DNA of 64,000 nt from Polytrichum commune (lineage: Eukaryota > Streptophyta > Polytrichopsida > Polytrichales > Polytrichaceae). The notes beneath the pieces were generated by a model. That model was given only the letters and a program-made list of their open reading frames with translations. It was not told the origin of the DNA and searched no databases. The DNA is taken from assembly GCA_950295325.1 (NCBI GenBank), contig OX485808.1, forward strand, positions 23,146,527 to 23,210,526. The letters run 5' to 3'. The position numbers were made by a program, and so were the translations under genes. Each line of letters starts with the position of its first letter. Within the stretch, counting starts at the first letter, position 1. Below are positions 4,028 to 64,000 of this stretch, piece by piece.

Positions 4028-4563
4028 CTCCCTCCGTTTCATATCAAAAGTTACATTTGGACATAATTTGCGTTACAAAACAAAAGATACGTTTGGTGAA
4101 ATTTCTTGCAAACTTCGTCAAACGAATTGGAATGTTGCTATAAACAATGTAAATGTTGTTGCTGATGAACTACCAAGTCAATCAACTAACAATTTACACT
4201 TATTTAACAATTGATATTTGAACATCAACACGGTTTTATGTGTATCATTCGTCAATGGTGATGAACGGGCGTGTTGCCTTCAACAAATTCACGAGCATTC
4301 CTAATGATTTCTGCCAAACAACGCAAAGTGTGAGGAAGTTCGCCCCTGCGCTGCAACGCTGCCTTTCCCATGTGTGGAATCTTATAGTGGTTCGATGAAA
4401 TTGGCGTTAAAAAAAATTTGATTTTTTTTTGGACACCCCTAGCTCACCGGAAAGTGCTTAGTGAGAGCTATACAACGCACACAATTTCGTGCTAAAAATG
4501 CGAAAAATGACCTTAATCCCACATATTTAGTGAAACGTAACTTTTGATATGAAACGGAGGGAG
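4028..4563. mobile_element. Stowaway MITE (Tc1/mariner-type), 536 bp
   Basis: The ends are perfect inverted copies of a 26-bp terminus beginning CTCCCTCCGTTTCATATC, with the inverse ending at 4563. The element is flanked by TA on both sides (4026-4027 and 4564-4565). CTCCCTCCGT termini with a TA target duplication are the classic Stowaway hallmark. It has no coding capacity and would have needed a mariner-like transposase in trans. The perfect termini suggest fairly recent movement. Confidence 0.93.
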
Positions 4564-4565
4564 TA

Positions 4566-5812
4566 ATAATTTACGATCGATTAAATGTCGTGATTTAACC
4601 ACGACCACGAGCACTTTGTGCAGTGTAAACAGGCCGGGCGTTCCTTATGGGTTAAGAAGGCGGTGGTGACAGCCTAGTATCCGAATCAAGTCCAAAGATC
4701 GCATGTCGAGCTATGGCGAAGAAGAAGAGACAAGAAGTAAGAACTTCGAACAAGACAAGGGATCAAGTGGGCCTCCCCAAGGACCCTTCCCACTTACGTT
4801 CCGATCCATTCCTTTTAGGTAACTTGTCACATTCCATCACGTGCTCCCTTGCGTATTGAAAGCACCTCGCCCCTCTTCAAAAGCATCTCACAACTAAGCC
4901 CCAATGTGCGGGATGGATGAGGAACAACCGTGATAAGCATCGTCCAAGGCCAAAAGCCGTTCTTTCTTTATTTCCCCATCCATATCTAGGTAACTTGTTG
5001 GATTCATTTGTAAAGGAAAAGCCTACGAAACCATGCATATCGTCCAAACCCTAAGTTTACGAGGACTCATACATAGGTCTTTTTACTGCATGAATGACTG
5101 AGCACAAAGAGTGAGGTTGGGTTGTTTAAAAGTGGTTTTGTAGCTTGTCCTATTACGATGGGTGGGCCAAGCTAGCCTTGCATAGGCTGAGATCCAAGAT
5201 TTGGGATCGTGGGTCCTGCTGGCATACCCTATTCAAGTTCCTAAAGTTCTCTCAAAGTTTGAGAGGTGGAAAGAGGAGGTCCCCAAAGTTTCACCCAACT
5301 TTCAAAATGGGTTCCAATGCACGATGAGCGAAACGAGCTCACAATAGAAACCTTTCTCAAAGAAGGATCAAACTCACGGTCTCATTCCTCTTTGAGGGAC
5401 TTTACGGATAACTCTATCACGGTCCAAATTCATGCCAAATTTGCCTTGAGGCTATGAAATTTGGATCATTTTCTACGGCCCCTTCGATTTTGTCCAATAT
5501 GGGAGCATTTGGATGTCCCTATCGCATTATGCCAAGACAATTTATTTTGAGAAACCCCAACCCAACCTACCCTTGCAACTGATCCATTGTAGCCTCCTAT
5601 CTTAACCACAATGTAGTAGTTGTAACGTACCTCGTTAAACTGTTCATAGACAATAAACAAACATTTAATTGACAAGAGGCTCACCTCCCAACCTGGAGAC
5701 ACATACAAAAAACATAACATGTGTTCTCCTTCCCCCGAGCCCAATCTACACATAGTATCCATAAGATACTTTCAGAAGTCTCAAGTCTTTCTATACATAG
5801 ACTGAAGTCTCC
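4566..5812. other. Gene-free stretch between two MITEs
   Basis: No gene or bounded element recognised. Short open frames have no family resemblance. Confidence 0.5.
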
Positions 5813-16715: not shown

Positions 16716-17204
16716 ACATGATGGTCAAGCCAAGTGATTTTGCTAATGTGTTTACTCCTTATTGGATACAAGGAGTGCCTACAAGGAGTGTATCCTTAAT
16801 TATCCCAATTTGTGAGTGAGGGTTAATAGCAAGTGTAGGAAATTAGTGGCGATACTAAATTTCTTTACGCTATGAAATTAGTGCCACCATATTAGTGTTC
16901 ATCCAAACACTATTCACTGAAAATACTATTCTTAACAACACTATTCACTGAAAGTATCGGCACTTATAACTGTTCACTAACAAGCATGTGTTTCCATAAA
17001 AAATAAATTAATCACTCTACAAACACCTTAGAGCATGCACTAATTTTTTTGAAATATATGGTAAATAAGCAGGTAGTCATAAATTTAATGCCATCCAATA
17101 AAAATGTAAGCCCTTGGTAACTTTGAGATTTGGCTAAATAGTGTGTGCTTTGGGAATTAGTACCACCCTCACTAATTGGGATACTCAATGTAGTGTCCAT
17201 CACC

Positions 17205-17660
17205 TAGAATTGATAACCATGCCATGGTTTGACCACTACGCCTGATAATGAATACTCGTCACCTTGTATCTACTGTAGGAAGCAACAACTTGCACCCAAT
17301 ATCTATCTCATTGCTACTGCAAAGCAGCAGATGCTTACATGTTTATTTTTATTGGATACAAGAAAGCACATTATCACCTAAAAATGATGACTTTGCCACA
17401 ATATGACCCCTACATGTAGTAATGGACACATGTCACCCCGCCATCAATTATAGTAGGCACACGGGTACGTACCTCACTGCTACCACCACTCAATAGGTGT
17501 TGCCATGTCTACACGTTATTGAATACAAGGAGGCACATTAACACTTGGAGTTGATGACCTTGCCACGATTTGACCCCTACATCCAATAATGGACACTTAT
17601 CGTCTTGGCATTGATTGTAGTAGGCATTGGGTACGTACCTCATTGCTACCACAACTCAAA
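17205..17660. repeat. Tandem repeat, about 165 bp x 3, last unit cut by a MITE
   Basis: Units start near 17210, 17382 and 17545 with 'ttgatgaccttgccacgatttgacccctac' variants, followed by 'aatggacac', 'gtaggca' and 'gggtacgtacctcattgctacc'. The third unit runs directly into the MITE that begins at 17661. Confidence 0.8.
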
Positions 17661-18034
17661 AGGTAGACAACCCTTATTCGGTTACTTTTTCTTATTAGGA
17701 CACCTATATTTGAGTGGTATGTGGTTTGGTGTGGCTCCACGAATGAATACCAAAAAAATTGTCATGTATTATAAAACACACGATTGCGTGCCCAAAATAT
17801 GATAACCATTATGTGTTCAATAGTCAACATAATTGGTGGACATATATATATGACTATTTAATGAGCATGAGAATCTTCACTTTGATAATGAATAAGACAT
17901 TCATATGAGCTCCAAAAATTATGAGGAAAGGGGCTATGACTTCTATTTGGATTTGCTAACTATGTTGTGCTAATTGTGTGTTTCTAAAAGAAGTGGGCTA
18001 GTTGGGAAAAGTAACTATCAAAGACCCATCCACC

Positions 18035-18035
<1 letters not shown>
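17661..18035 (+). mobile_element. Family-1 MITE (copy B), ending inside the stop codon of the reductase gene
   Basis: The left end AGGTAGACAACCCTTATTCGG and the right end AAGACCCATCCACCT belong to the family whose consensus terminus is AGGTAGATGGGTCTT. Its internal blocks ('gagtggtatgtggtttggtg', 'ctttgataatgaataagac', 'tttggatttgctaac') match copies at 37540-37902 and 46098-46522. The right flank TA (18036-18037) fits the family's TA target. The left flank TA is not preserved. On the minus strand this TA plus the first element base spells the TAA stop of the neighbouring gene. Confidence 0.85.
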
Positions 18036-21598
<3,563 letters not shown>

Positions 21599-21794
21599 TG
21601 CTGCACCTGTTCACCCCCATCAACTAGCCTTCATAAATCCATATACTAGCAGAAGCCAAAACCACCACACGAATCCAAATTACATTCCCAAGATCTTGGA
21701 AGCAAGACTTCCCGGTCAAGAATTTTCTCAAACTAGAGCACACACAGCATTTTCAACCCTGGAGAGGAACATGTGGTCATCGTCTGCCAAGAAA

Positions 21795-22025
21795 CTAAAT
21801 AACCATAGTAGCCAATAATTCCATCCTCGGCTCAATAGTCATCAACATGATTGGTGGGGCCTGTATGACCATTTGATGAGCTCGAGAATTTTCACTCTGG
21901 TAAATGAATAAGATATTCATATGAGCTACGAAATCAATGAGGCAAATGGCTATGAACACGACAATTCGGAATCGGCATTCATCTCGCACTAATTGTGTGT
22001 TTCGCATCCTTGGAAGAAGTTGGTG
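21795..22025 (+). mobile_element. Family-1 MITE remnant (copy D), about 200 bp upstream of the reductase start
   Basis: The blocks 'caatagtcatcaacatgattgg', 'tgatgagctcgagaattttcact' and 'ctcgcactaattgtgtgtttc' match the internal parts of copies at 17.8 kb, 37.7 kb and 46.3 kb. Terminal repeats were not found. With copies B and C, three members of one family sit at the 5' side, inside, and at the 3' end of one gene. Confidence 0.65.
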
Positions 22026-22377
22026 CGGAGCTAAAAGTGTCCATTGAATTTCAAGCCTGCTCACGTTAGGTCCACCCAACACGAACTTCCGTATTCAAAA
22101 TTCAACCTCTTAGGTTGCTGAGCTCCTGCACCTGAAGCACTAGCACAGGAACTCTGATGAACATTGGTATCTAAATTATGACAACCCTAATTCTCATTCT
22201 CTCTCTCCCCCTCTCTACTAACTTAACTTAGGTGTAGGAGCTTCTGAAGCTTAAACCCTGCTCATAGACTGCCACACCACCTGCATGTCCCATGCAAAGT
22301 GAGCTGCAATGAAAAGTAGGTCGATGAAAAGTCCAATGATGTACACCTCTCATCTGCCAAAGGTATCATGTCACTTA

Positions 22378-25300
22378 CAGTCCTACCTCTTTAATATGAC
22401 ACGTTTGGGAAACGAGAAAAAGGCCATATTATCGAGGTGTCACATATTCAATAATATGACAAATTGGACCTGGTTGTCACAATAATGAGGTACTTCATAA
22501 AAACACACTTGAGATATTTTGCCATATATAAAAATGAGTATTCTTTCAAATGTATTACAAATATGCAAATTCTCTTCACTAAACCTATGTGGACTTGAAG
22601 AAGGAATCAATAGTCCGCTGATGTTGCCACTTCAAGTTAGCAACAAATATCTTATTAAGCTTCTCTATTATGCCCTGCAATTTCATCAGATCTGCGGGAG
22701 TGAAGTCTAATGAATTGTCCATAAAAAATGTAGCTAATAGCTGAGCATGTTGTTGAGCATCCGTCAGTTTCACAATAGGTGGAGGTCTCTCATCAACATC
22801 TAAAGGGTTTACGGTCTCAGCAGTAAGGTCCAAACTAGCTGGCTCTATTCTCTGTCCTAAGGCCATATCAACCAGCTTTGACATGCAATATTCAGCCTCA
22901 ATGATGTCTTCACCTTCCATTACCACATACTCTTTAAATGGCATCTCATCTAATCCAAGCTGCAGTTTTGATCAGTCTCGATTTTTCTCTTTGGTCCTCA
23001 TTAGCAAAGTGTGCACTCCAATCAGGTGGCAAAATTCCTGATTTTCTCCAACAGCTTCGAATAATCTGAGGATCCATATCTGTCCAAACTTTATAGCTCC
23101 AGAGAATTGTTTGTTTAACGTTGGGTACAATTTTTCTCAAATCCTGTTGCTGATCTAAATCAAACTGCGATAAAACCCATTCAAGCAACTTGAACTTGTA
23201 TCGCAATTTGAAAGCAACAATTATGCCTTGGTCCAACGGTTGCACTACACTAATGCAATTCGGAGGCAGAAAAACAATTGTCACATTTGTCATGGGTAAT
23301 GCCGTAAAACCTGACAATTGTTTCTGTTGCACACCAGACAAGGAATGACATGAAGCATTGTCCATAATCAGCAGGATATTACGATCTTATCTTTTGAAAT
23401 GGTTGCTAAGCTTTTGCATCCAAGTCTCAAAAATATATGACCTCATCCATGCAGTAGTATTTGCATGCCAATACACAATGTCGGAAGGACTCCATCGACC
23501 AAAGCATCTTAGTCGTTGTGACTTGTGAATTACCAAGAGTTTCAGTTTGTCTGTACTTGTGGAATTCACTGCAAATGCTAAACTAAACCAATCCTTCTGT
23601 ATCTTCTTGCCCTTCACCTTTCCTTGTGCAAGAGTTTTGGCTAGTTGTGCACGAAAATACAAGCCTATCTCATCCAGAATATAAACATCTTCATGTTTGT
23701 ATGTTGCTAACAGTACAGGCATTTGATTCATTGCTTGAGCAACAACTTCTGCATTAGCTTCATCACTCTCTCCATGAAAGTTGACCCTACAAATCAAAGC
23801 AAAGGGTTAATTTACTCACTCAAAAAAATACCAAAAATCTTATGACTTTTGATGCAACAACTTCTAAAACTTATTTCTGAATCTGGTGCCTATTCTTAAA
23901 CTTCTCAAGCCACCCATTTGAAAACTTGAATGATTCATATCTGCTCACAAATTCTGCAGTGACTTCAGTTTGCTCCAGAAATGCTTCTTTGAATTTCTTG
24001 GCCTTGCTAACCAAATGCTCATCTGAAACCAATCCATCTTTACTACGACTCTGCAAATTTATCATATCAATTCAGAGGTTGACCCCAAGCAACATCAAAC
24101 TCAAAAGCATAGAGTCATAAGAACAACATTAATATCAAACTGAGATTTAGATAAAGATATGGACCTGTTTGAACCAGGTTAATATAGCACTCTCAAGCTC
24201 TGGATATACTGGTGCCTTCTCTCGCTTCATATCTTTGAGGTTGTCACCAGCCTCCAAGATCCTTGTAGAGTTCTTAAGAATCTAAGAGATAGTGTTTCTC
24301 TTAACTTCATTCCCCTTGTGCCTCTTATTAAAATCAATTGCTATCATTTGTTGAGTCCAATTGGGATTTTATCGGTGAATTTGTACTAGCTCTCTCTTCT
24401 CAAATAGAGTTAAATTTGTTCTCTTTCTCTTCCCATCTAGTTCCATCCTGAAAGTGACAACAATATACCACAATGAAATTATGAAACTGCAATTCAGACT
24501 TCACCCTTTAAACTATTGTAACTCAGTTGATATACATTGAAATTGAATGAGACTACAACCAAAAGAAGCACAGTGAAAACAACTTTCCAACAAGATCCAA
24601 AACAGAGTAATCGGATTAGAACTCACCTCACAAATTGCAAAATCAAATGGTTGTCTTGAAATTAGTATCTAGAACTTGAGCAATTTTCAAATCCATACAT
24701 CTCTGCCAATACACATTTGAAATTGAGCAAAACAACCACCAAAAGAAGCGAAATCTTCATAGCTTTCCAAAAATGTAAAGAAGGGTGTAATTGGATAAGA
24801 ATTGACCTCACAAATTGCAAAACCAAATCGATCAATTTCTGGATTAGGCGACCTTCATATGCTCATAACTTTGTCTATACAACTCGGAATTAAGCAAGAC
24901 TACCACCAAAAGAAGCAAAATTTCAATAGCTTTCCAACAATATGCAAAACACATCAATCAAATAAAATTTGATCTAAAAACCTCGAATCCAGATTGTGGA
25001 TGTTAGTTTAGGGTTTAGGGTAAGAACTGCTTCGAAAAAGACACCAGCTAATGAGTGTTGTGAGTGTGAGTAGGGTTTAAGAAAGAGAACCTAGTTCCCA
25101 TGGTTCTCATGTTTATTTCATCATTTTATATTTAAACTTCCTTAATCCAAACTTCATATGTATAAGATTTATGAATTTAAAATAAATTATGTATTTATGT
25201 ATATATAAGTGTGTGGGACCCACCATATAAATGCATTTATTACCTCTATAATATGACATTTGGGGGGTCTAGGAGTGTCGTATTAACATTGTCATAGTCG

Positions 25301-25403
25301 TAGTATAGAGGTAGATTTGAACTAGGAAGTTTGGTTTACAAAATTTGTGTCATAATATCGAGGTTGTCGTATTATCGAGTGTCGTATTAAAGAGGTAGGA
25401 CTT
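22378..25403 (-). mobile_element. pogo/Tigger-type DNA transposon, about 3.0 kb, both ends present
   Basis: The left end CAGTCCTACCTCTTTAATATG and the inverse of the right end AAGTCCTACCTCTTTAATACG match except at two bases. TA flanks both ends (22376-22377 and 25404-25405), as for Tc1/mariner/pogo elements. Variants of 'aatatgaca' and 'cgtattatcgag' recur just inside both ends as subterminal repeats (22395-22460 and 25250-25385). The interior carries a decayed transposase on the minus strand. Matching ends with a coding-length interior make this an autonomous-type but now inactive copy. Confidence 0.92.
22585..24446 (-). pseudogene. Tigger/pogo DDE transposase, broken
   Basis: Reading on the minus strand from the ATG at 24446, a helix-turn-helix N-terminal part (MELDGKRKRTNLTLFEKREL...) is followed by a likely donor at 24165-24163 and an acceptor before 24050. 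Next comes a CENP-B-like DNA-binding part ending near FKNRHQIQK, then the DDE_1 catalytic core. The three acidic positions are visible: the Asp of YILDEIGLYF, the Asp of LLIMDNASCHS and the Asp of VQPLDQGI. Breaks are in-frame stops in the first exon (after VQIHR and after NTIS), an in-frame TAA between the first and second catalytic blocks (23387-23389), and a frame change near 22945 before the acidic C-terminal part. The exact intron between 23871 and 23790 is unclear. It cuts and pastes TA-flanked elements in intact relatives; this copy should be dead. Confidence 0.88.
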
Positions 25404-25405
25404 TA

Positions 25406-26357
25406 CTGGTTTGTGGGCCTATAATGGACTCCTTCAACTTCACATCCACTTTTGGCTGTAGAAGGGGATCATAGATTGCCTCATCCAATTAGCAAGTGTG
25501 AATCGTGAGGATTGTTGTTTCAAGTGTCAAAATTGGAGTTGAAATGCAAAAGTTATAAGAGGTTAAAGTGAGGATTCTTCATTATGTCACAACAATCATA
25601 AGCCTAATAAAATAAATCTATTTCTTGTTTCTTTATTTCTTGTTTCTGTGCAAACGGAGAAGAAGTACTACCCGGAATAGCCAAAATAACTGCCAATCAT
25701 ATATATATATACACACATCATCAAATAGAAAGATTTTTTTTATAAAGACAAATATATTTGGCCAGCGATGAAGGCTAAACAATTGCAACGAGTGGACTCT
25801 ATACAGTAATGCATGCGGTCCTCACTAATACTCCACAAAAATATTAATGGCCGCAGGCCGAAGGCTCTTTGTAGCCTTCCCAATTGTGTTAACACTCTTA
25901 AACCTAACAATGTTTCTTTTCTAAGGATGTAATCCAATTGCATTGTAACATGTGTATGTTTGGTGTTACATTCTTAAACCTTAAAGGATGCGGGGGTACA
26001 ATGTACGACATACATACACAATGTCTACAAGCCTCACCAAGTCTTAAAATTGTACTCATACGTGACATTGATGAACAAAGTACTAAGTGTGCATTGACAT
26101 GCACACCACTCAAATTGTGTATTTGAACCCAAATTCTCAACCAAAATTAAGTTAACTATGGATAGGTCACTTTTGACACAATTGACCAAATATACAACGA
26201 TGTAGTTCAAGTACATGTTTTTTGTGCTTGGGGAGGCCTAGGAGGGTGCAGTCTTCATACCATGTACATATTAATGTGGCCCATGGATTTGGAAAGGGGT
26301 TTTAATTGAAGCATTAACGTACATAGTATAGTTAACCATGCACATCATTTAGAGTTC
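25406..26357. other. Gene-free stretch
   Basis: No coding or bounded repeat feature recognised. A short (TA)n/(CA)n run lies near 25700-25720. Confidence 0.5.
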
Positions 26358-26365
26358 CAATGAAC

Positions 26366-26925
26366 CACGGGTAGGTCACTTAGTGCATTTTAAAAACAAC
26401 GTGCGGCATAATATAGAGAGGATTAAAATCATTTGAAATAAAAATTATAAAGGAATTCCAAATAATGAAGGGGCCATTAAATGTAGACAATCCCATTATA
26501 AGTAAGTTAGATGGACATAAAATGTGGGCCATTATTTTTTTGTAAAATTAATATAGGGGCTGAAGATAAGGATCCTAGAAGGTATGTTTAGTATGTTTGC
26601 TATGGTCTCCTATGTGTTTTCTTCATAACTTTGTTTGCAATGATATTATTGTTTGCACCCTTCTTTGTTTTCATGGTTTCCCTTAACACTCGTCAATGCG
26701 TTAGGAAGTAGATTAGCTTTTATTACTTAAAAGGAATATAGAGTACAAAAAATTGCAGTGACTTGGACAATATAAGTAATGGAAGGGTGCAAACAAATGG
26801 GCCATTTTTGAAATTTAAGTAATTATAGGGAGGCTTTAATTTAGCCCTTGAAGGTAAATAGCCCCAAAACAAAAAACCCCAACCGCACGTGGTGGACAAA
26901 AATGCCTTAGAGTGACCTACCCGTG
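26366..26925. mobile_element. Non-autonomous hAT element (copy 1), 560 bp
   Basis: Perfect 15-bp inverted ends CACGGGTAGGTCACT are flanked by an exact 8-bp target duplication CAATGAAC (26358-26365 and 26926-26933). An 8-bp duplication with CA-starting termini is the hAT signature. Most of its body is nearly identical to 46654-47155, although the two copies have different middle segments. No transposase is encoded. Confidence 0.93.
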
Positions 26926-37287: not shown

Positions 37288-40200
37288 TCAAGGGAATTTG
37301 GTGAACTCAAAAACCTTCAACACGATCTCCCAGCCAGTCGGGATTTGCCATGCAAAGAGCAAGAGGTTGACAGTGTTAAAGGCAATGTGGAGACTTCGGG
37401 CCGTTTCATTTCCTTTCTGCATGGGTGGGACAAGAGCTGCAGCAAGGGCCCACAGAACCGTAATACCTGCGGAAAAAAACCCATCCCAACACTTTTCAAA
37501 AATGTCTCTTGAGATGATGTGAGCACTTCATGAGGTATAAGGTAGACAATTCTTATTTGGTTACTTTTCTTTATCAGACACCTAAATTTGAGTGATATGT
37601 GGTTAGGTGTGGCTCCAAAAATGGATACCAAAAAGACGTGTGTTCAAAAGAGATTGAACTACATGCTCAAAATATGATAATCGTTCTAGACTGAATAGTC
37701 AACACAATTAGGAGGGACCTAGATGACCATGTAATGAGCACGGAAATATTCACTTTGATAATTAACAAGCTCCGAAAATTATGAGCAAAGTGGCTTCTGC
37801 CTCAATAACAGTTTGCTAACCATCTCACACTAATCATGTGTTTCAAATCCTCGGAGAAGTAGGCTAGTTGGAAAAAGCAACCACTCAAGACCCATCTACC
37901 TTAGAGGAGAATCAATTATGAAGATTTTATGATGTAGCTTCTGGAGGTCAAAGACAGTTTCGACAGCTATGTATGGGAAAAACAAATTACTAAGAAACAA
38001 TTATATTTTAGTAGGATCTGATTGTTTGACATCGAGAGTCCCATTGTAGGATGGTTATACCATCAAGGGTTAACCTCTAAAGGCCTGGGGATTCCAGCTT
38101 GGATTAAAGATGTGTTATAGAATATGAATTGGAAACCTTATTTAGGAAGTAGCTAATCAGAGAAAGTTGTGAAGGGTGACTTTAGACTACTACATCCATA
38201 AGGTTAGAATAAGGATCATTGTCCCTGATCTCCACCAAACTATTTTTGAAGCAATTTTTTCTCCAAAAGAAAAGTAAAATTTCAAGATATATCAACATGA
38301 CTTGATCTTTAGTTAAAATGGCTAGAGTTCCATAACTTGGTGAGGAACAGCTAGAAATTTTTCATGTCACCTTTCCCATATCATAAATTTTGTGAGAAAG
38401 AAAAATGAAGGGTTCCAAGCATCATAAAACAAAAATTCGTCTATACATAATTTCAATAGGTTTGTCTGAGGCTGTGTAAAACTTTACTAGTTCCAAGTGC
38501 GAGGAGGAACAAACAAAGAAAAAAAAAATCTTTGAGATGTTAGTATTGTAAACATACCAACGCCAGCGTAGAGATGGGGTCCAGGGAAAAGCTTCCCAGT
38601 CCTCAAGTAGGTGTTGACTGCTCCACTCACGGAGAAGAGAACCCCACTTCCCAGCAAGATGGAGCCCCAGTTGAAATGGCGATCTCGGAACCCACCCTTC
38701 ACCAGAACCTTCCTCTCCTGCATGGATTCCAAGACAAAATGAGCATCCCACCTCAAAAAAAGAAACAAAAAGATATGGTAAAAGCCATTGTCAACAAGTG
38801 GTTTGAAGTGACAGCAATAATTATACATGTTCCAGGTGAGATGGGATCCCTTCAAATGGGCGCATTAGAAGTGGGGGAGAAAAAAAAAAAAAAAAAAAAA
38901 AAAAAACTCCAACATTTAAACTCTGCACTAAGTGCATTTCAAGTTTACAATTTAGCCATGTGGCCAGGAACACTTCACTTTTGTCGACCTGCTTTGGCTT
39001 CAGAGCAATTCTTTCTCATAATACTAGTTGACAAGCATGTATAGGTATGGAAGTGATCCTGAATGTAGATATAGAATAACTAGATTGAAGCTCAAACAGT
39101 TATTAAAGTTCGTTAATTAAATTTTTTAATCTTTGCAGAAACAACACTTGACACAAGAGTAATTTTTTGTAAAATAAATGTTGCAATGTTGGCGGGCATT
39201 TTATGTTTGCTTCTTGTGGATAGGATGTGGCAGATGTGAGATAGGGTTAGCAGATGAGCTTTGGTATGATGATAATTTTGTGACACGGATGAACTTACCA
39301 TCATGACACTTTGCAATAATAGATGTGAATAGATGTGAATCCTACATACCTCGCTGAGCGCCTTTATCTGGGCCTCAAGTGGAGAGGGTGCTGTTTGGCC
39401 CTCAGCCGTGACTGGCACCTGCTTCTTCAAAGCATTGATGTCATCCTGGATTGTTCGCACACGCCTCCACTGCCAACCCAAGTAGCCTGCGTACCCAGTG
39501 GCCACAAAGAGAGAGATCATCACTATTGGGTGGATGAGTGAGAAAATACGGCCTTCAAGTATCCCAAATTCACCACCGGCAGCATATGCATCCTGCACCA
39601 CAAAAACATGTAACACATAAGATTATCATTTCTTAACCCCAAGCTCCGGAAGCATCTCTTCATGCAAATACAGGAAATAAATACACAACAAATTTGCAAA
39701 CATAGCATTACTCAGCAATGTGGGCCTCCGGAATATAACAATCAAATGTTGGGAGCTTGGTTTAAATCTAAAGTCTCCCTGTATAGCTTTCCAAGCATCC
39801 AATTGTTATATTCTGAGGGTCCACTAAACGAGCACTAAGTGTTGAGTAATGTTATGAAACATGTAACACGTCGGGTTTACTTAATTAAAAACCCCAAGTT
39901 CTAAACAATTGAGAGAAACTTCAAGCAGTATCACAAGTGTCAAACACCACCACCTAGGTTAAGCAGTAAAGGCATGTAACCCCTAGGGTTGCACAACCTA
40001 AAAGGTTTTTACGACCCTATTTTTTTAAGGTGCTTTTGAGAAGGGCATGACGATGCATATGATGTGTCACATCAAAGTGTGTTCTTCAACTACCTATCAT
40101 ATTTTGTAGGCCAAATTTGGAGAACTTCCTCTAGAATTACACATTCTCAAGCTCACTATAGACTTTCAACAATGGCTCGCCCACCTATCCCCCTCTTGGT

Positions 40201-46097: not shown

Positions 46098-46522
46098 AGA
46101 TATAGATGGGTCTTAAATGGTTACTTTTCATATTAGGACACATGTATTTGAGTGGTATGTGGTTTGGTGTGGCTTCAAGAATGGATACCAAAAAGACATG
46201 TGTCTTGAGAGAGTTTGGACTATGTGTGGAGAATATGCTAGCCATTCTAAGTTCATTAGTCAACATAATTGTGTCATGGACTTATATGATCACTTAATGA
46301 GCATGAGAATTTTCACATTGACGATAATGAATAAGACAATCATATGAGTTCCAAAAATCATGAGAAAAGTGGCTATGGCCCGATTTGGATTTGCTAACGA
46401 TCTTGATTGATAATGTGTTCATATCCTAGAACAAGTTGGCTAGTCAGGAAAAAGTAAATAAATAATGCTAGTAATACTAGTAGTAGTAATAATAATAATA
46501 ATCAGTTGAGGCCCATCTACCT
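46098..46522 (+). mobile_element. Family-1 MITE (copy F), 425 bp
   Basis: The termini AGATATAGATGGGTCTT and AGGCCCATCTACCT are inverted partners and TA flanks both ends (46096-46097 and 46523-46524). A (TAA)n-like expansion lies at about 46466-46502 just inside the right end. The internal blocks match copies B and E. Confidence 0.85.
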
Positions 46523-46653: not shown

Positions 46654-47155
46654 CATGGGTAGATCACTTAGTGCATTTTAAAAACGACGTGAGGCATAAT
46701 ATAGAGAGGATTAAAATCATTTGAAATAAAAATTATAAAGGAATTCCAAATAATGAAGGGGCCATTAAATGTAGACAATCCCATTATAAGTAAGTTAGAT
46801 GGACATAAAACGTGGGTCATTATTTTTTGTAAAATTAATATAGGGGCTGAAGATAAGGATCCTAGAAGGTATGTTTAGTATGGTATGTAAATGGGTTTAG
46901 GACTCACGGGGATGGATGATAATCAAGATTTCCGTCTGTCCAAAATTATTTAAAAGGAATATAGAGTACAAAAAATTGCAGTGACTTGGACAATATAAGT
47001 AATGAAAGGGTGCAAACAAATGGGCCATTTTTTAAATTTAAGTAATTATAGGGAGGCTTTAATTCAGCCCTTGACGGTAAATAGCCCCAAAACAAAACAA
47101 AAAAACCCCCAGCCGCACGTGGTGCACAAAAATGCCTTAGAGTGATCTACCCGTG
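46654..47155. mobile_element. Non-autonomous hAT element (copy 2), 502 bp
   Basis: The ends CATGGGTAGATCACT and the inverse of AGTGATCTACCCGTG differ at one base. The exact 8-bp target duplication is CCGGTGGG (46646-46653 and 47156-47163). The body is nearly identical to 26366-26925 except for a replaced middle segment (46882-46950 here, 26600-26725 there). Confidence 0.93.
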
Positions 47156-52893: not shown

Positions 52894-53386
52894 GGTAGAA
52901 ATACCATAACCCATTAACCACCCTCTAGCCGTGCACTAGACCACCGTCACAATGGTGAAGTGCCATTTCCAAAACCGATCATGGCTCGGCGACAACTTCA
53001 ATGCGTGTACACTTAGTGTAGCCAATGGGAGTCAAGTGTTAATGTACTCATGACGTAACCGATTTAGATGATGTTCTGTATGGAAATGCAGATTACCCGG
53101 TAATCTGCAAATCCATGATGGGCAGGTGCTAAAACTGGAGGCCTCACATAGGCCCAACTTTGCTCCTAATGATGTTCGGTGTAGGGAAAATCTAGTGAAC
53201 AAGTAGGGGGTTGGACAACTTTCCACTTTGAAAAATTGTAGCGTTTTTTGTATAGGGCAAAAAAATATGAAACAACTTGCATTCTTCATGAATCCTTCTC
53301 GTCTATCTTGGAAAATTATCTCATGATTGTCAGACCAGATCTTCAATGCGAATCACCTTATTTTCACGGGTTATGGTATTTCTACC
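52894..53386. mobile_element. Harbinger-like MITE (TTA target), 493 bp, just upstream of glyoxalase I
   Basis: Perfect 19-bp inverted ends GGTAGAAATACCATAACCC are flanked by TTA on both sides (52891-52893 and 53387-53389). It ends about 250 bp upstream of the glyoxalase start codon, within or next to that promoter. Confidence 0.85.
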
Positions 53387-53793: not shown

Positions 53794-56700
53794 GAATTCC
53801 ATTTCCCCCTCCCCCCCCCCCCCAAATCTCTCTCTGTCTCTGTCTCTCTCTCTTCTCCTTTGGCATTCATTCCTCTTATCACCTAACTTCACTCAACTGC
53901 TCTTAAGCTGCACGTCGAATTCTGCTCAGGATCACGAATTTTGGTTTCTTATCTTGTGTTTTACAGATTTTTGCACTCTTTCTCTATCAATGTGAACATA
54001 AGCTACGCATTCCTCCAGCGATGTTAGTTGATTGTTAGTTGTGTGAAGTGAAGTGTTTTTAGGTTGGGCGTGGAGTCCTCTCTGTTCGGCTCAGGATGAC
54101 GGGTTTTAGATTCTTTTTGTTCCTTATTTAAGGATTCTAGCTTTCTTTCGCTACCGCTTGTGAAGATAACCTACGCATACCTTTAGTGATAGTTGTGTGA
54201 AGTGAAGTGTTCTTAGGCGGGACGTGGAATTTTTCTCTGTTCTGCTCAGGATGATGAATTGTAGTGCATCTTACCGTTTTTTGGCTGTCTGTCTTTGTCA
54301 CTGTGGATGTATTTTACGCATGCCTCTAGTGACGTTAGTTGTTTGATGTGACGTGCTGTGTGTTGCTTGAAGTGAAGTGCTGTTAGGTTGGGCGTGGAAT
54401 GTTCTCTGTTCTGCTCAGGATGATGAAATATAGATTCTTACCTTCCATTTGACCGATTTTGGCTTTCTTTCTTTATCACTGCGAACATAACCTACGCGTT
54501 TCTCTAGTGACGGTAGTTGTTTGTGAACATAATCTCTACGCATTCCTCTAGTGACGTTAGTTTTTTGAAGTTAAGTGATCTTAGGTTGGACGTGGAATTC
54601 TCTATGCTGTGCTAAGGATGTTGCATTTTACGGGCATGTCTGCATCTTCGATTCTTACCTTTCATTCTTCCACATTCGTTTTCTGTTATCACTGTGAAAG
54701 AGAATTCCACTATTGACTTGAGTTGCTTGAAGTGAAGTGCTCTTAGGTTGGACGTGAAATCTCTCTGTTCTGCTTAGGGTGATGGATTTAGATTCTGACC
54801 TTCCATTTTGCCATTTCTTTGTCCTTATTCACTTCAACATAAACTACGCATTCGTCTGGTGTCGTTAGTTGCTTAAAGTGAAGTTCTCTTAGGTTGGACA
54901 TAAAGAGCGATGGATTTTGCGGACACATTTGCACCGTAGATTTGTTACCGTCCATTCTGCCATATTCCTTTTTCTTTATCAGCGTGAAGATAACCTACAC
55001 ATTCCTCTAGTGACGTGAGCTGAGCGAAGTGAAGGGAAGTGAAATTCTGACCTTCCTTCTGCCATTTTCTTTTTCTTTCTCCATCACTTCAACACAACTT
55101 ATGCATTTCTCTAGTGACGTTAGTTGTTTGTAGTGAACTCTATGTTTGACGTGGAATCCTCTCTGTTCTGCTCAGGATGATGAATTTTGCGGACATATTT
55201 GCATCTTGGATTGTTACTCTCCATTCTGCCATATTCGCTTTTTCAATAAATCAGTGCGAAGATAGGCTACTCACTCCTGTAGTGACTTGAGCTGAGTGAA
55301 GTGATGTGAAGATTTTTTAGGTTGGACGTTGGGACCTCTCTGTTTCGTTCAGGATGATGAATTTGGTGGACAAATGTGCATTTTAGAGTCTGGTCTTCCA
55401 TCTGCCGCATTCATTTTCTTTATCACTTTGAGGATAACCTATCCATTCCCCTAGTAATGTCAGTTGAGTGAAGTGGAGTTCTCTAAGGTGGGATCTGGAA
55501 ACCTCTCTTTTCTGAATTTCGTGGGCATGTATGCATTTTAGATTCTGACCTTCCATCTACTATATTCGTTCTCTTTAACCTAGGCACTCCTAGTGGCGGT
55601 AGTTGCATTGAAGTGAGGCGCTCCTAGGTTGGACGTGGATGCTGCTGCGGATGAATGATTTGAACGTTGGCATATATATATATTTGCATTGTGCATACTT
55701 GCATTCATCCTTACATGTTCCCGGGCATTGGGACTGTAGATGGTGGATCTAGGCACCAGAAATGCTTGCGGACACACACTCATGTAGTGCATGCATCAAG
55801 TCAGACACCGGTGCAACTCGTGCAACGGAGGCTGATAGCATTGCTGGCGTTGGCTGGCTCATCATTCTCCTTCTTGCCATTGGACCTTTTGGCTGGTTAG
55901 GAGTCTGCATATGCATCAAATTATGTTATGTTGATCTTGCCAGCTGCAGTCCGTGATTGGAAACCCACGTGCATTATAAAATTCCAATATTAGATTCATA
56001 GCCTTATCCACATCCACACATTACCTTTCGTTTCTGTGAACGAGACTACAGTAAATCACAGTACGCATCAATCTTAATGCACATTAATTCCTCTGTTAGA
56101 TGTTGGCTAGGAAAGTTGATAAAATGCATGACTTTTTTTTGTAATAATATTGCAGCCCTGCATGGCCGGGGTTTAAGATTTAGGTTTAATACTGCCGAGA
56201 TTGGCTTGTGGACATTGCCGCTCACATTCTGTAGGCAGTCACATAAGTGCCAAGTGTTACAGAGGATTACAGAAAATTGGGAGGGCTTACTTTCAAGAAT
56301 GCTAAGGTCTAACATACTTAAGTCAGTGTGGACATGAATATGCAGACTTACATAGTCAATTTCAAATACAAGTGATGTATGGAGTAGGATCCAATTATGG
56401 TGGCATGGTGTTGTAGAGGATGAAACTTTATCTTTTCATTAAATAGCAGGCACCTAATTATAGCACTTAATGGTCATTAGGTGCTGTAAACGGGAATTGA
56501 CATTGAGCTCTTTCTTGTGGTGGTTATGTCCATAGGTAGACAAATACCAGGGCTTCCAGGTCTATCACAGTTTCTTCAAGGTAAAAATGGGAGTATAATG
56601 GCATCAGCTGCTTCAGCTGAAACCACAACAAATGAAGAGAACCTCCTAGAGTTTGCTAAGAAAGATGATCGACGAATGCTTCATGTTGTCTACCGCGTTG

Positions 56701-63987: not shown

Positions 63988-64000
63988 TAAGGTAGATGGG
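63988..64000 (+). mobile_element. Left terminus of another family-1 MITE at the window edge
   Basis: The window ends TA followed by AGGTAGATGGG, the exact family-1 terminus. The body lies beyond the window. Confidence 0.6.

Follow-up and report, generated by a model that had tools for sequence, protein, structure and literature searches.

In the 64,000-nucleotide stretch of Polytrichum commune DNA analysed here (the window), a putative double-bond reductase gene on the minus strand runs at its 3' end directly into a MITE. This arrangement raises the question of which bases of the stop codon belong to the gene and which to the element, and of what the insertion may have meant for the length of the protein and for the 3' end of the transcript.

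The gene itself is intact: five exons splice into an open frame of 345 amino acids on the minus strand, separated by four GT-AG introns of 171, 856, 676 and 823 bp. The acceptor of exon 2 is the sole AG that keeps the frame open within the searched 21277-21141, and the other exon borders were set by eye. The exons obtained by splicing of the open frame are as follows.

21368..21598, minus strand: exon 1 (coding part), with the start codon at 21598
21019..21196, minus strand: exon 2
19996..20162, minus strand: exon 3
19237..19319, minus strand: exon 4
18035..18413, minus strand: exon 5, the terminal exon (coding part)

Pfam domains ADH_N_2 and ADH_zinc_N were found in the translation, together with near full-length similarity to solved plant enzymes (4hfj, E 6.1e-121; 2j3h, E 9.4e-105), and the top PDB relatives carry the names allyl alcohol dehydrogenase, pulegone reductase, 2-alkenal reductase and double bond reductase. 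These similarities point to a plant double-bond reductase / 2-alkenal reductase (medium-chain dehydrogenase) as the gene product.

Read directly from the sequence, the minus-strand end of the frame is GCT GCA GAT TAA. Plus-strand positions 18030-18040 read CCACCTTAATC, which on the minus strand gives GAT at 18040-18038 and TAA at 18037-18035, then GGTGG; beyond this TAA the minus strand continues GGTGGATGGGTC, and the sequence after the stop at this MITE-bearing locus is AGGTGGATGGG. The element and its two-ended reference copies were delimited by BLAST within the window and by comparison of termini.

18035..18037, minus strand: stop codon TAA of the reductase; its TA (18036-18037) is the host target dinucleotide and its final A (18035) is the terminal base of the MITE
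17661..18035, plus strand: MITE copy B, 375 bp, of a TA-target family, with termini AGGTAGAC... and ...CATCCACCT
37540..37901, plus strand: two-ended reference copy E, with TA/A at both ends
46098..46522, plus strand: two-ended reference copy F, with TA/A at both ends and a microsatellite near its right end

Copy B aligned with copy E at 71.7% identity (17660-18037 versus 37539-37903, E 7e-54) and with copy F at 77.4% (17680-18017 versus 46119-46460, E 6.5e-67). The gene-side terminus of B, TA followed by AGGTGGATGGGTCTT, agrees with the right terminus of E at 14 of its first 15 bases. Read inward, the ends of E are TA followed by AGGTAGACAATTC and TA followed by AGGTAGATGGGTC, and those of F are TA followed by AGATATAGATGGG and TA followed by AGGTAGATGGGCC. 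With high confidence, the TAA of the reductase is two-thirds host DNA (TA) and one-third MITE (A); this confidence covers the make-up of the stop codon, and the alternatives weighed below partly address separate sub-questions, so that their probabilities do not sum to one with it. The raw sequence, the intact 345-aa frame and the TA/A termini of E and F agree here with the initial annotation, which had composed the stop of the target TA and the first MITE base A and had matched the gene-side end of B to the TA-flanked ends of the other two copies. The region it gave for the event, 17661..18050, divides into the element (17661-18035) and 15 bases that belong to the gene (18036-18050).

These bases would be explained if a TA-targeting MITE had landed on a TA lying right at the end of the reading frame of the reductase. 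The gene would have kept its own TA and would read straight into the MITE, whose first base, A, would halt translation at TAA. Transcription would then enter the 375-bp MITE, the probable source of most or even the whole of the 3' UTR and a possible location of the poly(A) site; in a later step the TA on the far side would have decayed or the flank would have been replaced by rearrangement.

The assignment of the last A to the element was examined across the family. An nhmmer profile built from five window copies, including B, gave 17 hits in the window at E up to 1, whereas the reversed control had no hit; 10 of the 17 fell below 1e-20, and five of these ten strong hits are the copies that seeded the profile, so that they are hits by construction. 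Among 12 termini, the dinucleotide outside the element was TA in 10 (the exceptions being the far side of B, with AA, and the terminus at 51.58 kb, with CA), TA making up 6.3% of the dinucleotides of the window, and the first element base was A in all 12. Three of these 12 termini (51.58, 48.2 and 52.46 kb) were chosen by eye; a further one, at 63990, sits against the window edge and shows only 11 element bases. A scan for TAAGGTRGA at one mismatch returned 44 matches versus 27.6 expected, so single matches without an attached copy mean little; an exact match at 53381 (minus strand) was left out of the terminus count. The terminal inverted repeats of B are present but degenerate, with the outermost 15 bases matching at 9 of 15. 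Its best local block scores 26, whereas 500 shuffles average 14.7 and never exceed 24, and the corresponding score of copy E, given without shuffling, is 24. With a TA duplication on both sides of E and F, the sole two-ended copies besides B (where TA stands on one side), with terminal inverted repeats and with multiple short non-coding copies, the family fits a TA-target MITE family of Tc1/mariner type in the broad sense; we do not assign it to a superfamily.

A three-base TAA/TTA target, as in Tourist or PIF/Harbinger elements, would make the whole stop codon host DNA, to which the MITE supplies nothing. TAA is read inward at 10 of the 12 termini, so that at any single end the A is indistinguishable from a target base. 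Tourist and PIF-Harbinger MITEs create a 3-bp TWA direct duplication, and with such a duplication one end would show TAA and the other TTA when both are followed inward; E and F, however, read TAA inward at both ends, and B reads AAA and TAA. A 3-bp TAA duplication therefore does not fit, the duplicated site being TA and the A being part of the element. On the evidence of the two-ended copies we rejected both a Tourist-type target and membership in Tourist / PIF-Harbinger, and we consider it highly improbable that the stop codon is host DNA throughout. Stowaway membership was likewise rejected: the Stowaway terminal motif is CTCCCTCCGT, and a CTCCC start is absent from all twelve MITE termini.

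Interrupted pieces of a pogo/Tc5-like transposase (DDE_1 twice and HTH_Tnp_Tc5, in separate open frames) lie on the minus strand at 22949-24071, about 4.5 kb from the MITE. Within this one window no transposase with MITE-like ends was found, the inverted repeats listed for 22000-25400 having no AGGT start and TAAGGTRGA having no match within one mismatch at 19765-26502, around the pieces; a pairing of the MITE with this transposase thus finds no support from within the window. A 22-nt inverted repeat, 95% complementary, at 22381-22402 and 25379-25400 brackets the pogo/Tc5-like pieces and may represent the ends of that element, the searched stretch stopping at 25400.

To place the stop codon relative to those of related enzymes, we compared protein ends among 22 PDB relatives at E up to 1e-50 and among the 11 best-scoring of these. 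The C-terminal residue is identical to that of the reductase in 7 of the best 11 and in 8 of all 22. Within the best 11, 4hfj, 4mkr and 4wgg extend 8 residues beyond this point, which we take to be a purification tag, and 7e4d extends 3 beyond; among the more distant relatives that differ, six are 3 residues shorter and the others are 1, 3, 8 and 8 residues longer. The stop thus sits where close relatives mostly have theirs, as had been claimed from the length of the C-terminus, and the different end residue in 14 of the 22 counts against our best explanation. Given that the protein shares its end point with most close relatives, the enzyme probably came through the insertion unharmed, its length being observed and its activity presumed.

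The far side of the element gives a less simple picture, in which two features are involved.

17659..17660, plus strand: far-side dinucleotide of B, AA where TA is expected; the sister array unit has CTCAATAGG there
17340..17660, plus strand: two diverged units (79% identical) of a tandem array of about 167 bp, found by BLAST and reaching up to the far border of the MITE

Weaker traces of the unit of about 167 bp were found near 17200 and 16750; the array was found by BLAST and was not reported by Tandem Repeats Finder. A probable short separate element with ends like GTATCCCAATTAGTGAGGGTGG was noted by eye at 16790-17190, inserted in the same array. Where the flank of B reads CTCAAA and then the element, the sister unit reads CTCAATAGGTG. 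Because the sister unit has a TA at the position of the far flank, a TA probably stood there once and has since lost its T. The description of B as a TA-flanked element therefore holds for the gene side and fails for the far side, where AA (17659-17660) leaves the copy with only one intact TA.

When the flanks were joined across B, the frame ended in ...VRVAADY-stop or ...VRVAADYELW-stop, depending on registration, and in neither case does the present codon become TAA or TAG. This could mean that the gene first stopped a little further downstream, or that the far flank now present is not original. The earlier proposal that the insertion fell at or just before the original stop is thus plausible from the protein length and unconfirmed by the flanks, which place the stop 1 or 4 codons later, so that a stop moved by a few codons has to be weighed seriously as an alternative. 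By this account the MITE made a new, slightly earlier stop: the ancestor would have read GAT TAT TGA, one residue longer, or would have been four residues longer, and the incoming A turned TAT into TAA. The longer ending, ...VRVAADYELW-stop, follows if the far dinucleotide is the mutated AA, and ...VRVAADY-stop follows if the far TA lost its T by deletion; this latter registration is the one backed by the CTCAATAGG of the sister array unit. The present end, shared by 7 of the 11 best PDB relatives, nevertheless makes a same-end ancestor somewhat likelier a priori, and the flank from which the longer endings are read may not be original. We rate an earlier stop made by the MITE as not far short of an even chance.

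The array also bears on whether the two flanks of B were ever neighbours. Its homology stops almost exactly at the MITE border, while the sister unit has TA exactly at that border and continues past it with array sequence. An abrupt end of this kind is not predicted by a single clean insertion and counts against our best explanation; either the MITE hit an existing seam at which the array met the end of the gene exactly, or the seam itself arose by a rearrangement in which the MITE took part. Copy B would then be a junction produced by recombination between a MITE in the array and one on the gene side (or by deletion at the element end), with flanks that had never been adjacent, and the differing flanking dinucleotides are consistent with this. 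Against such an origin, the identity of B to the other copies has no clear switch: of four segments, three are closest to E or F and one to the 48-kb piece. As there are few copies, this comparison has low power to reveal a chimeric B, and the consensus identities in it include each copy itself. On balance we think a junction rather unlikely, and we retain insertion at a TA at the end of the reading frame as the preferred explanation.

At 375 bp, the MITE is long enough to contain much or all of a 3' UTR measuring a few hundred bases; derivation of the 3' UTR and poly(A) site of the reductase from the element is plausible. A scan with a list of 15 poly(A)-like hexamers found 7 on the transcript strand of the MITE versus a mean of 3.2 (sd 2.5) in tiles of equal length; 10.6% of 1022 tiles reach 7, so the enrichment is not significant. 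The functional 3' end could instead lie beyond the MITE in the repeat array, with the element forming only part of the 3' UTR. This fits the absence of a significant hexamer density in the MITE and the distribution of exact AATAAA, which on the transcript strand (scanned over 17201-18035) is confined to the array (17353 and 17347), about 680 nt past the stop. Variants of AATAAA do occur inside the MITE, however (AATAAG twice, ATTAAA, AATATA and others), and degenerate poly(A) signals are often used by plant genes, which weighs against a 3' end in the array; we treat such a 3' end as a tentative possibility, somewhat on the doubtful side.

Two further copies of the family lie within or close to the gene.

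18526..18707, minus strand: truncated same-family copy in intron 4, inverted relative to B, with TA at its intact end (18524-18525), identified by BLAST, profile and terminus comparison
21821..22036, plus strand: partial same-family copy about 220 bp upstream of the start codon, in the orientation of B, identified by BLAST and profile

On the transcript strand, a duplex of B and the intron 4 copy was predicted at -173.9 kcal/mol versus a shuffle mean of -65.1 (sd 5.6, lowest -78.5; 60 mononucleotide shuffles, intron copy only). In a predicted fold of a 1,047-nt stretch of the pre-mRNA, computed without a shuffle control, 139 pairs join the two copies. The pre-mRNA could accordingly form a hairpin with terminal exon 5 in its loop. 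Intron 4 also contains, at 18884-19174, an inverted repeat with 94-nt arms (78% complementary) that apparently belongs to another MITE family, and a stretch CTTTCAAATTTTTTGGG near 20270 in intron 2, noted by eye, resembles it.

MITEs at the 3' ends of plant genes are known from earlier work. Across 19 Arabidopsis thaliana accessions, one study counts 2647 MITEs that span multiple gene sub-regions and finds 2308 of them in the last exon, straddling CDS and 3' UTR; Tc1/mariner is the biggest class (793) among the last-CDS/3' UTR MITEs (PMC5454002). The count there is given as annotation overlap, whereas at the present locus the exact codon is resolved, with one base coming from the element. In rice, 1,182 genes are reported to have MITEs in their 3' UTRs, and one such element, the Ghd2 sMITE, represses translation (PMC5338036). 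The reductase locus resembles Ghd2 in the association of a MITE with the 3' end of a plant gene; in Ghd2 the element lies inside the 3' UTR, and translational repression and OsDCL3a dependence were tested, whereas here the case is read from sequence and the stop codon, too, is touched by the element. The Brassica element BRAMI-1, a TA-flanked Stowaway MITE, shares with our element a TA target site and genic insertion, and its insertions were compared with empty sites (PMC3626606). It differs in being assigned to Stowaway by its authors, and in the available text of that study stop codons appear just as coordinates in a figure legend (PMC3626606). By title and start of abstract in the open-licence literature, searched on terms other than the gene name, we found no TA-target element that rebuilds TAA at a stop, which is not proof of absence from print. 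The kind of event is already described, and the locus is a clear, well-resolved instance of it, with an unsurprising mechanism, and not a new phenomenon.

Its value lies in being a base-resolved case of a transposon end taken up into a stop codon while the length of the protein changed little, if at all. The case suggests a rule that could be counted genome-wide, namely that a TA target together with a first element base of A or G preserves TAA/TAG stops. A wider reading would make this a stop-healing family: with a TA target and A at both element ends, TAA would be rebuilt from any TAA/TAG stop in either orientation, and selection would hence tolerate the insertions. Stops would then be preferred landing sites at which genes are handed new 3' ends, and here the intron copy would in addition enclose the terminal exon in a hairpin. 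We consider this wider reading improbable.

Several other features were recorded elsewhere in the window. On the minus strand at about 4541-4575, TA is followed by CTCCCTCCGTTTCATATCAAAAG, which we take to resemble a Stowaway end. About 20 kb apart, 26366-26874 and 46654-47097 share, at 97% identity, ungapped pieces 175 and 153 nt long, and given this identity they are probably much younger than the MITE copies. At 54033-55540 there is a degenerate direct repeat cluster with families of six 70-nt and five 83-nt copies, e.g. TATGTTTGACGTGGAATCCTCTCTGTTC.
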